This document shows, piece by piece, positions 2 through 24,709 of a DNA stretch of 25,840 nt. The translations under genes and the position numbers were made by a program. The first letter of the stretch is position 1; the number at the start of each line of letters is the position of its first letter. The notes under the pieces were generated by a model. It saw only the letters and a program-made list of their open reading frames with translations, made no database searches and had not been told where the DNA came from. The stretch is from a virus, in the IMG/VR virus record IMGVR_UViG_3300027973_000199, positions 1 through 25,840 of that record, one strand, 5' to 3'.

Positions 2-1108
2 TCTTTCGCCGTTGAAGGCGCGAAGATCGGTTCGACCCTGCGTATTCGTCTGCCCGACCGCGCTCTGGTAACTGACGGTGCTGCCCTGCAAGTTCAGGAC
101 GACAACGAGCAGTTCACCACCCTGACCGTTTCGACCCAGAAACACATCGGCGTGAACTTCACTTCTGCCGAATTGACCATGCAGTTGGATGACTTCGCAG
201 AGCGCGTTCTCAAGCCGCGTATCTCGCAGTTGGCCTCCAGCATTGACGCTGACGTTGCCAATGCCTACAAAGCAATCGGTAACACCGTTGGTACGCCCGG
301 AACGACTCCAGCTTCTTCGCTGGTTCTGTTGCAAGCTCAACAGAAACTGAACGAGAACGCCGCTGTCATGAACCCACGTTATGCAACGGTTAACCCCGCT
401 GCCAACGCTGGTTTGGTTGAAGGCTTGAAAGGTCTGTTCAACCCAGTTGATACCATCAGCAAGCAGTTCAAGAACGGCATGATGGGCACGGGTGTGCTGG
501 GCTATGACGAGATCAATATGTCTCAGTCGATCAAGCAGCACACCACGGGTAACTTCCCTGTTTCTCCAATTGTTTCCGCAAGCGCCACGTTTGCCGAAGG
601 TCAATCAACCCTCGCCATTACGTTCTCTAGCGGGACCAAGACAGTTAAGCAAGGCGACGTTTTCACCATCGCTGGCGTGTATGCAGTCAACCCACAGACC
701 CGTGAGTCAACTGGCAGTTTGCAGCAGTTCGTTGTGACCGCTGACAACAGCGTGACCTCCGGTACTTCAATGACCTTGGCAATTTCTCCGGCGCTTTATA
801 CGTCGGCAAATGCTTTGGCTACCATTGATGCGTTCCCGGCTACCAGCGCGGTTATCACGTTTGTTGGAACTGCTTCAACCCAGTATCCACAGAACTTGGT
901 CTACCACAAGGACGCAATCACGTTCGCTACGGCTGACTTGTTGCTGCCGCAGGGTGTTGATATGGCTGCTCGCGCAGTACATAACGGCATTTCGTTGCGT
1001 GTCGTGCGCCAGTACGATATTAACAACGACCGTTTGCCATGTCGTATTGACGTTCTGTATGGCTTCTCAACGATCCGTCCACAGATGGCTTGCCGCCTCT
1101 GGGGTTGA
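2..1108 (+). CDS. Major capsid (coat) protein, P22 gp5-like, 5' end outside window
   Basis: The reading frame is open from base 2, so the true start lies upstream; 368 residues are visible against about 430 in P22 coat. The protein would form the icosahedral shell with the HK97 fold. The visible start (IGSTLRIRLPDRAL), the middle block around QGDVFTIAGV, which matches the KRGDKISFAGV region of P22 coat, and the C-terminal GISLRVVRQYDINNDRLPCR followed by IDVLYG are what identify the family. The GTG at 152 is an internal valine codon, not a start. The gene heads the virion module and is followed 23 bp later by a small putative decoration protein. P22-type coat is a confident call; the exact N-terminus is unseen. 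Confidence 0.9.
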   Translation, partial: SFAVEGAKIGSTLRIRLPDRALVTDGAALQVQDDNEQFTTLTVSTQKHIGVNFTSAELTMQLDDFAERVLKPRISQLASSIDADVANAYKAIGNTVGTPGTTPASSLVLLQAQQKLNENAAVMNPRYATVNPAANAGLVEGLKGLFNPVDTISKQFKNGMMGTGVLGYDEINMSQSIKQHTTGNFPVSPIVSASATFAEGQSTLAITFSSGTKTVKQGDVFTIAGVYAVNPQTRESTGSLQQFVVTADNSVTSGTSMTLAISPALYTSANALATIDAFPATSAVITFVGTASTQYPQNLVYHKDAITFATADLLLPQGVDMAARAVHNGISLRVVRQYDINNDRLPCRIDVLYGFSTIRPQMACRLWG

Positions 1109-15278: not shown

Positions 15279-16597
15279 TTAAGCGCCTCCATAGCGATGT
15301 CAGAAACGGCGCGTTTGTCTTGGAGCGCCACCCAAATTTTTTCGTCAATTGTCTTCTGAGTTGACATAATGTAGACCCAGACGTCATGGCGTTGGCCGCT
15401 GCGGTGTAGGCGTCCGACCGTCTGCTCAAACAACTCCAACGACCACGGCAGCGACACGAAGACCATCTTGCAGCCGCCGTGCTGAAGGTTCAGACCGTGA
15501 CCGGCAGACTTAGGATGCACCGCCAGCAGTTCAATCTGACCGGCGTTCCAGCGCCCGATGGCGTCTTCATCGTCAAGCGTGACAAGGTTGGAATAGCGGC
15601 GGTGCAACTCCGCAAGTTCTTCTTGGTATTGGTAGACCAGAATCGTGTTGGCGTGCTGGTTCTCAGACAGCAAGTCGTCCAGCGCCTCAAACTTGTGTTT
15701 GGAGAACCAGATCGGCGTTTGATGCGTGATGAACTTACCCCGCACAACTAGATCGGGTGTGTGCGAAGTGTCATACACAAACCCAGACGCCATCTGTTGC
15801 AGCTTGCCCGTCACCACGCCAGCGTTCAGGGCGACGATGTTGGCGGTGTCGTACTCCAGCACAAATTCTTTCTTAAGTTTGTTGTAGTGGTCCATCTGCA
15901 TCTGACAGTTCACATGGACCACATGGATCGGCGGCAACTTATCCCGGTACTCTCCCGGCTCAAGGACGTAGGTGGCCGGTTTGATACGCTCCATAACGTG
16001 TTCCAGACTGCCTACGCGCGGCGTCCATTGGCCGAATTCTGGGTTTATGGCGATGAAGTATTGTTGCAAGAACGCGCCCTTGGAGCGCCCGAGCAGCGTC
16101 TGGTCGATGATCTTGCATTGCCCGTAGACATCTCCCAATCCGTTGCTGGTAAACGATCCGGTCAAGCCCCACCGGATTTCAATGTGGTGAATTAACTTGG
16201 CGAGCGCTTTGAACCGCGCGCCGTACGGGTTTTTGAGCCGCGTCAGTTCGTCAAAGATGATGCAGTCAAAGTCCAAATGCGGCATCGACTGGATGTTGTC
16301 GTAATTCGTCACCACCACCTGCGCGCCGGACTTAAACGCTTTCTGGCGCTGCTTTGGTGTGCCGACCGCGACCGCGACGGTCAACTCAGGCGACCACTTC
16401 GCGGCCTCGGTCGCCCATACGCTCTCGGCTACCCGTTTAGGCGCAAGCACTAAAGCGTTGCGTTTGATTTTGAGCAGCGCCGACAACGCGGTCAACGTGA
16501 TCGCCGTCTTGCCAGCCCCCACGGGCGCTAGGATCATTGCGCGGTCTTGGCCGTACAGAAAGTCTGCGGCTACTTCTTGGTAAGGTCTAAGGACCAT
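15275..16597 (-). CDS. SNF2-like DEAD-box superfamily 2 helicase
   Basis: 440 residues; ATG 16597 with AAGGGG 8 bases upstream. Motif Q/I: RPYQEVAADF then APVGAGKT (Walker A, K30). Motif II is DELT at 116-119, in the place of DEAD/DEAH. Motif III is LTGSF, and motif VI is QTVGRLHRSGQ near 392-402 with the arginine finger pair. This fits the compact SNF2-related phage helicase that remodels DNA with ATP. The gene follows the VRR-NUC nuclease with a 28-base overlap, a pairing often seen in phages for recombination or replication fork processing. Start is well supported by the ribosome site. Confidence 0.9.
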   Translation of the reverse strand: MVLRPYQEVAADFLYGQDRAMILAPVGAGKTAITLTALSALLKIKRNALVLAPKRVAESVWATEAAKWSPELTVAVAVGTPKQRQKAFKSGAQVVVTNYDNIQSMPHLDFDCIIFDELTRLKNPYGARFKALAKLIHHIEIRWGLTGSFTSNGLGDVYGQCKIIDQTLLGRSKGAFLQQYFIAINPEFGQWTPRVGSLEHVMERIKPATYVLEPGEYRDKLPPIHVVHVNCQMQMDHYNKLKKEFVLEYDTANIVALNAGVVTGKLQQMASGFVYDTSHTPDLVVRGKFITHQTPIWFSKHKFEALDDLLSENQHANTILVYQYQEELAELHRRYSNLVTLDDEDAIGRWNAGQIELLAVHPKSAGHGLNLQHGGCKMVFVSLPWSLELFEQTVGRLHRSGQRHDVWVYIMSTQKTIDEKIWVALQDKRAVSDIAMEALK

Positions 16598-16851
16598 TGT
16601 GCTACCCCTTCTAAGTTCCAGATTACTGTGTAGTTTTGGTTAAGTTGACGCATGGTTGCGCCGAAGTGTTCCTGTAATTTGCTGAGTTTGCCCCCCTTGG
16701 TTTTAAGTTCCACGAACCACACCGACCCGTCTGGCAGACACGCCACACGGTCGGCCACGCCCCGAACGCCGGGGCTTGTGAACTTGTACGTCTTGCCGCC
16801 CATCGTCTCGACGGTCCAGACGAAATGGCGTTCGATTTCGCTTTCTTTCAT
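16570..16851 (-). CDS. VRR-NUC family nuclease
   Basis: 93 residues from ATG 16851. A GTG/ATG-type extension to 16941 is open, but it would run through the promoter and the domain begins at KESEIERHFVWTVE. The VRR-NUC motifs are clear: SPGVRGVADR (D34), then WFVELKTKGG (E48, K50) and Q60 in KLSKLQ. The family is a PD-(D/E)XK nuclease that acts on branched or flap DNA; the domain is also in FAN1. It is about the length of the stand-alone phage version. It is the first gene of the leftward operon and appears to be leaderless (see the promoter entry). Confidence 0.88.
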   Translation of the reverse strand: MKESEIERHFVWTVETMGGKTYKFTSPGVRGVADRVACLPDGSVWFVELKTKGGKLSKLQEHFGATMRQLNQNYTVIWNLEGVAQWSLDLTKK

Positions 16852-16857
16852 GCCGTC

Positions 16858-16886
16858 ATCATAGCTTGTGAAAAAGTTGTTGACAA
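16858..16886 (-). promoter_or_regulatory. Leftward promoter for the VRR-NUC/helicase operon
   Basis: On the minus strand TTGTCA (16886-16881, 5/6 to TTGACA) is followed by exactly 17 bases and then TATGAT (16863-16858, 5/6 to TATAAT). Six bases after the -10 element lies the ATG of the nuclease gene, so the message would begin at or beside the start codon. No good Shine-Dalgarno precedes the ATG, which fits a leaderless mRNA. Confidence 0.72.
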
Positions 16887-16911
16887 GCAGATTGTGGTCG
16901 GGCAGTATGAC
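16880..16911 (+). promoter_or_regulatory. Possible rightward promoter sharing the divergent region
   Basis: A perfect TTGACA (16880-16885) overlaps the leftward -35 box because TTGTTGACAA (16877-16886) is nearly palindromic. At 17 bases the -10 would be CAGTAT (weak), and TATGAC is 20 bases away (too far). So a rightward promoter for the replication genes is expected here but its -10 is poor. The TTGTTGACAA differs by one base from the TTGCTGACAA repeat at 25116-25237. Confidence 0.4.
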
Positions 16912-16941
16912 ATCTCCAACCAACCACACAGGTACTCTCAA

Positions 16942-19311: not shown

Positions 19312-21168
19312 GTGATCCTGTGGGTTGACTTCGAAACCCGTAGCACCTGCGACCTTCGGGTCGCGGGTGTCTATAACTACGCGCAGGACTTGGAAACCGA
19401 AGTCATCTGTATGTCCTACGCTTTTGACGACGGCGACGTTCAGACATGGACGCCCGATCAACCATTCCCAGATTCAATTAAGAACCACAAAGGCCAGATC
19501 CGCGCGCATAACGCCGCATTTGAGCGTCTGATCTTCTGGTACGTGCTTCAGATCAACTTCGATCTTGAGCAGTTCTATTGCACCGCAACACAAGCCCGCG
19601 CTAATTGCGCGCCGGGGTCGCTTGAGGACGTCGGCAGGTTCGCGGGCGCTGACATGAAGAAAGACCGCCGGGGCGATTACCTTGTGCGCCAGTGTTGTGT
19701 GCCGCCCTACAATGACAAGCTCATCCCAGAACTCATAGAGTATTGCGAGCAGGACGTGCGCGCTATGCGCGCCGTAAGCGTTGCCCTGCGGCAGTTGTCC
19801 GATGAGGAATTGCTTGACTACCACGTGAACGAGCGGATCAATGACCGAGGTGTAAAGGTAGACATTACACTTTGCAAGGCGGCGATCCGCTACGCTGACG
19901 CCGAACTAGCCGAGATACAAAGTATCGTAACCGAGATCACAGGCGGGCTGGCCGTGCGCTCGCCACGTATGCGCGAGTGGGTGCTGGCGCGCGTCACGGA
20001 CGAGCAAAAGAAACTGATGTGGGTCGGTGAGAAGTACAGCATCGACAAGGCCGTTCGCGCTAATCTATTAGCGTGTGATGACTTAGACCCGGATGTGCGT
20101 GAGGTAGTGCAATGCGCGGACGATCTATGGGCGTCCTCGATTGCGAAATTTAAGCGTTTACAGGAGTTAGCAGATGTCGAAGATGACCGAGTACGAGGCG
20201 CATTTGTTTTTGCTGGCGGATCTGCGACGGGGCGAGCCTCTAGTTACGGAGCACAAGTCCATAATTTCACCCGCAAGACCGCCAAAGATCCGGCTGGAGT
20301 GCGTGAGGATATGGTCGGGGGAAGAGCAATTGTCCCTATTCACGGACGAAGAGTTACAGATGTGCTCAAAGGGATGCTCCGACCCGCGCTTATTGGTAAT
20401 TTCGTAGTCGCGGACTGGTCAGCTATCGAGGCGCGCGTCAACCCGTGGTTATCAAACATGGGCGAGGAGAAGCTCAAGCAATTCGACCAAGACATTTACA
20501 AGATCAACGCCGCTGCGACGTTCGGCTGCTCTGTCGATCAAGTGACCGACGATCAGCGTCAGATCGGCAAAGTTCAGGAGCTATCGTGTGGCTATGCGGG
20601 CGGTGTGGGCGCGTTCGCCGCTATGGGTCGGGCCTATGGCATTCATCTGCCAGAGGCCGACGCCAAGCGCATGGTAGACGCTTGGCGGCGCAGCAATCAA
20701 TGGGCCGTGCGGTTCTGGTCGGAGCTTGAGCGGGCCTATACGTCAGCGATGCACACGCCTAACGCGGAGTTCAGCGCGGGTCGGGTTACGTACCTATTCG
20801 ACCGCCAACATCTCTGGTACATTCTTCCTTCGGGCCGCGTTCTGTGTTACCCGTTTGCAAAACTGGAAGACGATGGCATTTCATACTGCAAAGCCGCCTG
20901 GAAGCCCGCCGCTGACGCTAAAGAATGGCCGCGCGCTCGACTATGGAAAGGGTTGGCTTGCGAGAACATCACGCAAGCAGTCGCCAATGATGTCCTGCGC
21001 CACGCGCTACGTCAGCTAGATAACGTAGTGCTCCACGTACATGACGAGATCGTCCTAGAGGACGGTGACCCCGACGTATTACGCCGCGTCATGTGTACGT
21101 CGCCGCCGTGGGCGGCAGGTTTGCCCCTGAAGGCAGAAGTTAAGCAGATGACAAGGTATGGGAAATAA
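19312..21168 (+). CDS. DNA polymerase, family A, with 3'-5' exonuclease
   Basis: 618 residues with a GTG start right after the previous stop and AGGG upstream. The proofreading domain has D6/E8 (VDFETRS), N67 in AHNAAFERLIFW and Y144-D148 (YCEQD), a complete DEDDy set. The polymerase domain has motif A DWSAIEAR (D368), motif B R416-K420-Y428 (RQIGKVQELSCGY) and motif C LHVHDEI (H577, D578, E579). It should replicate the phage genome. The segment from 20174 to 20407 is unusual: 5 of its 9 Arg codons are CGA and 2 are AGA, against about 2 CGA and no AGA in roughly 43 elsewhere in the gene, and a second ORF lies there in another frame. Confidence 0.95.
   Translation: MILWVDFETRSTCDLRVAGVYNYAQDLETEVICMSYAFDDGDVQTWTPDQPFPDSIKNHKGQIRAHNAAFERLIFWYVLQINFDLEQFYCTATQARANCAPGSLEDVGRFAGADMKKDRRGDYLVRQCCVPPYNDKLIPELIEYCEQDVRAMRAVSVALRQLSDEELLDYHVNERINDRGVKVDITLCKAAIRYADAELAEIQSIVTEITGGLAVRSPRMREWVLARVTDEQKKLMWVGEKYSIDKAVRANLLACDDLDPDVREVVQCADDLWASSIAKFKRLQELADVEDDRVRGAFVFAGGSATGRASSYGAQVHNFTRKTAKDPAGVREDMVGGRAIVPIHGRRVTDVLKGMLRPALIGNFVVADWSAIEARVNPWLSNMGEEKLKQFDQDIYKINAAATFGCSVDQVTDDQRQIGKVQELSCGYAGGVGAFAAMGRAYGIHLPEADAKRMVDAWRRSNQWAVRFWSELERAYTSAMHTPNAEFSAGRVTYLFDRQHLWYILPSGRVLCYPFAKLEDDGISYCKAAWKPAADAKEWPRARLWKGLACENITQAVANDVLRHALRQLDNVVLHVHDEIVLEDGDPDVLRRVMCTSPPWAAGLPLKAEVKQMTRYGK
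20174..20407 (+). CDS. Possible overprinted small gene inside the polymerase gene
   Basis: 77 residues in a different frame from the polymerase. AGGAG lies 7 bases before the ATG, an ideal ribosome site. The protein looks natural rather than a shadow: it opens MSKMTEYEAHLFLLADLRRG, has SPARPPKIRLECVRIWSG, and then EEQLSLFTDEEL. QLSLF is the canonical five-residue sliding-clamp-binding motif, and this phage codes a clamp-like protein. The polymerase frame uses rare CGA/AGA Arg codons exactly here, as expected if this frame also constrains the bases. It stops just before polymerase motif A. A chance ORF remains possible. Confidence 0.45.
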   Translation: MSKMTEYEAHLFLLADLRRGEPLVTEHKSIISPARPPKIRLECVRIWSGEEQLSLFTDEELQMCSKGCSDPRLLVIS

Positions 21169-24100: not shown

Positions 24101-24709
24101 TCAAAGTGTCGAAAATGCGTCAAACGTCCACGACGGCGCGGCGTAGTTAGCCAAACCTTCAGGATCACGATAGGGCATCAGTACGCCGAAAAACTTCGTA
24201 TCGTTGAGCGTGATCGGCGCGGCCGATCCGCCATTGTGCCAAATTTTAAGATTAGCCCTCGATCCCAAGCATTTATTAGCGGCGGCGAATTTGGCAATCA
24301 ACGCGGGATCAAACTGAGCGACTTCGCCGCTACATTGTTGCGGAATAACGCGCGCAATGTCGGGAAATTTCCCGTCGACGGCGGCCCACGCTACTGTCGC
24401 GCCGCCAACTACGCTAATCGTCCCCGTCGCGCCGTCGTTGGTGTCGATCACGGCCGCGTCGAGACCATTTTTTGCTGGCTTTAACATTTTGATGACGTCG
24501 AGCGGTAGTAGAAAAGAAACCTTGTCGTCGACTTCGTTCTCAACGTCGACGACGCGGTACATCCCAACGCAAGTTCCATTTGTCGCGGCCAAGATCGTTT
24601 GGGTTGCGTTTGCCTCAACGCGAACGCTGACCATGTAGTAGCGAATTTCCTTATCGGCCGCAAGTTGCGCGACGGCGTGGAGCGCTGAGAGTTTGACGTT
24701 GATTTTCAT
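24101..24709 (-). CDS. Sliding-clamp-like protein (DnaN-like, short)
   Basis: 202 residues; AAGGA about 7 bases before ATG. It begins with an amphipathic strand-helix (MKINVKLSALHAVAQLAADK), then VRVEANATQTILAATNGTCV, LPLDVIKMLKP and DGKFPDIARVIP. The last block closely matches the DGRFPDY-RVIP signature of bacterial beta clamps. Bacterial clamps have three domains and about 366 residues; this one has room for two, like T4 gp45 or PCNA subunits. It may tether a polymerase or act as a clamp mimic. It has its own promoter and palindromic operators, apart from the polymerase operon. Confidence 0.72.
   Translation of the reverse strand: MKINVKLSALHAVAQLAADKEIRYYMVSVRVEANATQTILAATNGTCVGMYRVVDVENEVDDKVSFLLPLDVIKMLKPAKNGLDAAVIDTNDGATGTISVVGGATVAWAAVDGKFPDIARVIPQQCSGEVAQFDPALIAKFAAANKCLGSRANLKIWHNGGSAAPITLNDTKFFGVLMPYRDPEGLANYAAPSWTFDAFSTL
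24659..24669. promoter_or_regulatory. Operator-like palindrome inside the clamp gene
   Basis: CGCAA-G-TTGCG is a perfect palindrome in the first codons of the clamp-like gene. The same core recurs as CGCAA-C-TTGCG at 24743-24753. The centres are 84 bp apart, eight helical turns, as expected for two sites bound by one looped repressor. Confidence 0.5.

Follow-up and report, generated by a model that had tools for sequence, protein, structure and literature searches.

The stretch of DNA analysed here, referred to as the window, is the 25,840-base virus record IMGVR_UViG_3300027973_000199 (positions 1 to 25,840). It contains a family-A phage DNA polymerase gene (pol), within which a second ORF is present in the +1 frame, and, on the opposite strand, a gene for a DnaN-like protein. 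The features are as follows, clade A being the window's own clade:

19312..21168, + strand: family-A phage DNA polymerase gene (pol), 618 aa, host of the overlapping ORF (Pfam DNA_pol_A, 1.9e-11; PHROG 17 DNA polymerase, 2.2e-84)
20162..20166, + strand: Shine-Dalgarno sequence (SD) AGGAG, spaced 7 nt from the ORF's ATG, read from the sequence and kept in clade A and a second lineage
20174..20407, + strand: overprinted ORF of 77 codons in the +1 frame of pol, MSKMTEYEAHLFLLADLRRGEPLVTEHKSIISPARPPKIRLECVRIWSGEEQLSLFTDEELQMCSKGCSDPRLLVIS, open in 27/27 clade-A contigs
20323..20367, + strand: stretch of near-zero synonymous change, pol codons 338-352, +1 frame EQLSLFTDEELQM.. (observed/expected 0.23)
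20327..20341, + strand: clamp-binding motif (CBM) QLSLF, ORF residues 52-56, in 27/27 clade-A contigs, fitting the published CBM definition (PMC11139829)
24101..24709, - strand: DnaN-like sliding clamp, 202 aa, candidate partner (PF02767, weak match at 0.0013; PHROG 947 processivity factor, 1.1e-11)

The overlapping ORF encodes 77 amino acids, from an ATG start to a TAG stop. No pol-frame start codon is positioned to use the AGGAG at 20162-20166, and a +1-frame TAG at 20168-20170 closes the reading frame immediately upstream of the ATG. QLSLF is the sole match to Q[LMI][SDNG]LF across the six frames of the window. An earlier note on this DNA had described the 77-codon ORF, the AGGAG located 7 nt upstream of the ATG and the QLSLF pentapeptide, and all three were confirmed in the sequence. 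It had also named QLSLF as a clamp-binding consensus, and the motif does match the published definition, Q-phi-x-[L/M]-[F/L] or Q-phi-x-[L/M]-x-[F/L] (PMC11139829). No homologs of the ORF protein were found in Pfam, PHROGs or GenBank phages.

Conservation and synonymous change in clade A

A search with the ORF protein yielded 39 loci, and a search with pol yielded 80. The clade-A set consisted of 27 viral contigs matching the clade-specific pol pattern MLRPAL[IV]GNF with third bases left free, so that the relatives were not chosen by the ORF itself. QLSLF is encoded in the +1 frame of all 27 contigs (CBM match in 20/20 non-redundant sequences), and the open +1 frame stops at the same place or 5 codons earlier. 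The ATG is kept in each contig covering the start, with AGGAG ahead of it in 23/25 contigs and AGGAA in 2/25. Conservation of the ORF among related phages, proposed earlier as a check, thus extends throughout clade A for the SD, the ATG and QLSLF. The closest GenBank phage polymerase, MW202483, the only one to reach 58% identity, contains +1 stops and none of the features of the ORF. No clade-A phage in culture was found.

Synonymous divergence was measured in 20 non-redundant clade-A pol genes. Codons 288-337 of pol, which make up most of the ORF, gave a normal observed/expected ratio of 1.11, and codons 338-352 formed a trough deeper than any other 15-codon stretch in pol (permutation p <0.002). 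When third-base changes were counted on a tree built without the tested region, clade A showed 0 changes at codons 338-342 versus approximately 15 expected (3.0 per codon elsewhere), placing these codons in the lowest 0.65% of windows. The reduced synonymous change anticipated over 20174-20407 was therefore found at approximately 20323-20367 (codons 338-352) only, and constraint over the whole ORF was rejected. Because the N-terminal 50 codons of the ORF evolve at the normal synonymous rate of the gene, visible selection is confined to the motif, and codons 288-337 show no protein-level constraint.

Two pol codons in the constrained stretch vary at the first base in clade A: codon 341 is GTC or ATC (V/I), and codon 343 is ATT, CTT, GTT or TTT (I/L/V/F). 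These changes alter the polymerase and leave the +1-frame EQLSLF unaltered. Judged from the aligned sequences, substitution at first bases only is the prediction of selection on the +1 frame, and the opposite of ordinary polymerase evolution.

Synonymous change also departs from the average elsewhere in pol. A second near-zero trough of similar depth is present in clade A at 20809-20853 (pol codons 500-514), where CAT CTC TGG TAC ATT CTT CCT TCG GGC is fixed in nearly all 20 genes, and no coding motif or motif-type signature was recognised there. Because this trough is comparable and lacks the motif, a single trough could be the result of chance or recombination. Over pol codons 301-337 (20212-20322), the synonymous rate is approximately 1.5 times the gene average in 3/5 lineages examined, clade A being one of the three. 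Clade A also has distinct allele types over this segment, suggestive of local recombination. Near the start of the gene, synonymous sites at 19339-19383 (pol codons 10-24) are conserved in several clades and between clades; the 25-codon window 7-31 shows synonymous conservation with p <0.001, possibly reflecting an RNA or DNA element.

Lineage D, chance expectation and codon usage

The wider comparison comprised 118 non-redundant relatives, with 13 rows forming lineage D, which shares 72-75% identity with the window across this segment of pol. Most lineage D rows carry AAGGAG, AAGGAT or GGAG ahead of the same ATG, and 11/13 encode QLSLPL, QLSLL or QLYLF at the same residue as QLSLF. The exceptions are L138, where the motif is present but a good SD is lacking, and L094 and L139, where the SD is present but the motif is not. 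Codons 338-342 of lineage D show 2 third-base changes versus approximately 13 expected (lowest 0.8% of windows), and the Fisher-combined p for constraint at these codons in clade A and lineage D is 6e-4. Groups B1, E and F, which have no SD at this ATG, showed no constraint at codons 338-342 (window ranks 0.32, 0.85 and 0.80, respectively).

Counted without regard to kinship, a strong SD and ATG is found together with a QL[SY]L-type CBM in 30/32 versus 1/86 non-redundant sequences. When 99 pol genes are read in the +1 and +2 frames, 26/31 CBMs lie at exactly ORF residue 52 and none outside the ORF; the antisense frames contain some chance matches, at other positions. The product is 72-81 residues long in most members of A and D, with the motif at residue 52. 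By this comparison, the pol genes of clade A and lineage D carry a nested +1 ORF with its own SD and ATG, of which the CBM is the sole strongly selected part.

The pol tree separates A and D, and a single A+D clade was not rejected (AU p 0.2), so that one origin or two are both possible and two independent origins are not established. In other clades, QLFL[DN]L and QSCLGM, the latter departing from the published CBM consensus, were considered as working clamp motifs and rejected, as they show no constraint. A family-wide start at ATG288 or at TTG298/300 was rejected because it is not conserved.

The chance expectation was estimated from 4000 synonymous-codon shuffles of the window's pol gene, in which +1 and +2 ORFs were scored. 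An ORF of at least 77 codons with an ATG arose in 58% of shuffles. For ORFs of at least 60 codons, 16% of shuffles contained one whose SD scored -6 kcal/mol or better, 1.5% one with a CBM by the published definition, and 0.2% one with both. QL[SD]LF occurred anywhere in 0.05%. The length of the ORF is thus ordinary, and the combination of SD, ATG and CBM is unusual (58% versus 0.2% of shuffles).

Within the ORF stretch, the Arg codons of the window's pol gene are CGA (5), AGA (2), CGC (1) and CGT (1), compared with CGA 2 and AGA 0 of 40 outside it (Fisher p 1.4e-5). The earlier note had pointed to this skew; its count of 5 CGA and 2 AGA among 9 inside the stretch stands, and its outside total of 43 is corrected to 40. 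The use of the CGA/AGA excess as specific evidence for the gene did not survive the comparison. The excess is shared by almost every related pol clade, even those lacking the SD or the constrained motif, and is therefore non-specific; Arg-codon bias was rejected as proof of this ORF.

The anomaly extends to other amino acids. Synonymous usage at codons 288-361 is odd in 13/14 pol clades, with sharp borders at the ends of the ORF (Arg A3 0.48 versus 0.14; Gly GGA 0.41 versus 0.08; Leu CTC 0.52 versus 0.12), and the +1 frame is open over the stretch in 109/118 sequences. Distant polymerases show little or no such anomaly. The +1-frame composition looks protein-like (E, D, L, Q and K up; R, C and stops down), and is therefore a hint of a family-wide gene. 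Conservation of the +1 protein between clades showed no excess over other pol regions, no start codon conserved over the whole pol family was found, and no motif constraint was seen outside A and D in the groups examined. Stop-codon avoidance was rejected as unique family-wide coding evidence, since other parts of pol show deficits too in a permutation test. A rare-codon cluster or slow-translation stretch is disfavoured, as ATA, CTA/TTA and NTG before A are avoided and GGA/CGA/ACA and CTC rise. It is possible, if doubtful, that the +1 frame of the segment is an old overlapping gene shared by a large freshwater phage group, which would have left the codon footprint over 288-361 in 13/14 clades, evolved very rapidly except at a short docking motif, and acquired or retained a canonical CBM in at least two lineages together with reduced phage clamps.

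The candidate clamp and the proposed product

The gene at 24101-24709 had been called clamp-like, and its product is indeed DnaN-like by sequence, PHROG match and predicted fold. Its homolog L238 aligns over clamp domain II with beta clamps of solved structure (6e-14), and the AlphaFold model of the window's protein matches PDB beta clamps (E 3e-9, TMq ~0.65). The segments RYY, T-[DN]-G, FPD..RV and MP-x-R, which we take to be the peptide-pocket segments of DnaN, are largely kept across the clamp family. The protein and its relatives share with DnaN the domain II sequence and the predicted fold; DnaN is a three-domain chain of 366 aa forming a dimeric ring, whereas the 24101-24709 protein, at ~200 aa, is about one domain shorter. 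Sequence and structural model indicate a protein that would work like a DnaN clamp, and full DnaN membership is not claimed. The best PHROG match of this gene is labelled RusA-like resolvase (phrog_3007), which looks misannotated. Reduced DnaN-like clamps of ~200 aa occur sporadically among members of this phage family.

A phage clamp is present in 13/28 clade-A records (window included), 3/14 lineage-D records and 2/49 others, and is thus enriched yet not obligatory (16/42 for A and D together versus 2/49, p 5e-5, kinship ignored). Two clade-A contigs of ~36 kb contain no recognisable clamp gene, so that a host clamp is an equally possible target. Strict co-occurrence of the ORF with a phage clamp was rejected, because the clamp is missing from several near-complete clade-A contigs; those contigs still keep the CBM.

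A small overprinted clamp-binding protein, as a prediction from comparative sequence data, is well supported in clade A and lineage D. We consider it probable that this protein is mostly disordered and attaches by way of the CBM pocket to a sliding clamp, the ring that keeps DNA-copying enzymes on DNA; its role would probably be that of a competitor or regulator. In the proposed mechanism, ribosomes would initiate internally on the pol mRNA, at 20174, to give a separate small protein, and its QLSLF would dock in the protein-binding pocket of the clamp. The clamp would be either the reduced one of the phage, if its genome has such a gene, or host DnaN. The product would most likely act by filling the pocket, so that other clamp clients are displaced or regulated, rather than as a polymerase-clamp adaptor. 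A pocket ligand is favoured over a two-sided adaptor because the product has no other conserved part and no second interface, which is a judgement. The AlphaFold model of the ORF product has a mean pLDDT of 57, a low confidence that is weak evidence of disorder, with helices at residues 6-18 and 58-64, and the CBM lies outside both. Disorder is common among CBM carriers (PMC11139829).

In a variant of this explanation, the overprinted protein would be a tether bringing the phage polymerase to the phage clamp. This would fit the enrichment of the phage clamp in lineages A and D, and also the lack of a strict CBM match in pol and the other proteins of the window, save the QWSLDL of the ORF at 16570-16941. 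However, the N-terminal two thirds of the product is not conserved, so that no second interface is evident, and the near-complete clade-A contigs without a phage clamp retain the motif; we regard the tether role as rather unlikely. The ORF at 16570-16941 (- strand) is endonuclease-like (PHROG 93), and QWSLDL, near its C-terminus, is a possible six-residue clamp motif.

Alternatively, there would be no second gene. Odd local codon usage (low GC3, few NTG) with an unrelated cause would leave the +1 frame open, and the SD, ATG and QLSLF would be coincidental, preserved by recent shared ancestry or by a DNA or RNA element in codons 338-352. The codon anomaly is family-wide and the openness of the +1 frame partly follows from it, long alternative ORFs are common in synonymous shuffles of pol, and the second synonymous trough at codons 500-514 is also in keeping with this account. 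A nucleotide element, however, would forbid the four first bases seen at codon 343 while third bases are fixed. The SD, the ATG and the motif position recur in lineage D, with a different pol sequence and the variant QLSLPL, and the groups without the SD are unconstrained at the motif codons. The absence of a second gene is judged unlikely.

It is highly improbable that the +1 segment is instead the tail of a frameshifted polymerase (an exonuclease part with a CBM tail). In favour of such a product, the start codon is not conserved family-wide, and it would be functionally sensible for a truncated replication protein to have a CBM close to its C-terminus. Against it, clade A and lineage D both retain an SD and an ATG dedicated to the ORF, and no conserved slippery sequence was seen at codons 280-300. 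In addition, the window and most lineage D members have a +1 TAG two codons ahead of the ATG, and the frameshift would have to occur downstream of that TAG.

Significance and comparison with known systems

If the preferred reading of a small overprinted clamp ligand is correct, the phage would hide a clamp ligand inside its own replicase gene, with the polymerase and a clamp-directed protein produced from the same mRNA. A docking motif of five residues could then be enough by itself to justify retaining a new gene where the frame is already in use, and, with its constrained motif set apart from a free linker, the ORF would offer a clean test case for gene birth by overprinting. It would also expose a gap in annotation, as genome annotation usually drops ORFs nested in this way on the same strand. 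In the literature searched, we found no described case of an ORF nested in a phage pol gene with selection visible only at a short linear motif.

Gp168 of phage Twort inhibits the beta clamp of its host (PMC11139829, citing Liu 2021). Like Gp168, the ORF product would be a phage protein aimed at the sliding clamp, in its case by prediction. As summarised in that source, Gp168 occupies the DNA channel and not the CBM pocket and is not described as overprinted, and the two are likened by description only.

Compared with known CBM proteins, QLSLF and QLSLPL/QLYLF fit the consensus, and the motif of the ORF lies outside the predicted helices, in a region that may be unstructured. Known motifs are found in the tail of a polymerase, a repair enzyme or a transposase, such as the transposases with QLxLF tails (PMC4549789), whereas here the candidate motif is in an overprinted mini-protein within the pol gene. 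With overprinted viral genes (reviewed in PMC8227390), the locus shares a new alternative-frame ORF in an older gene and atypical codons in the older frame. It differs in that the ORF is nested in a phage DNA polymerase gene, with selection visible on a short linear motif only.
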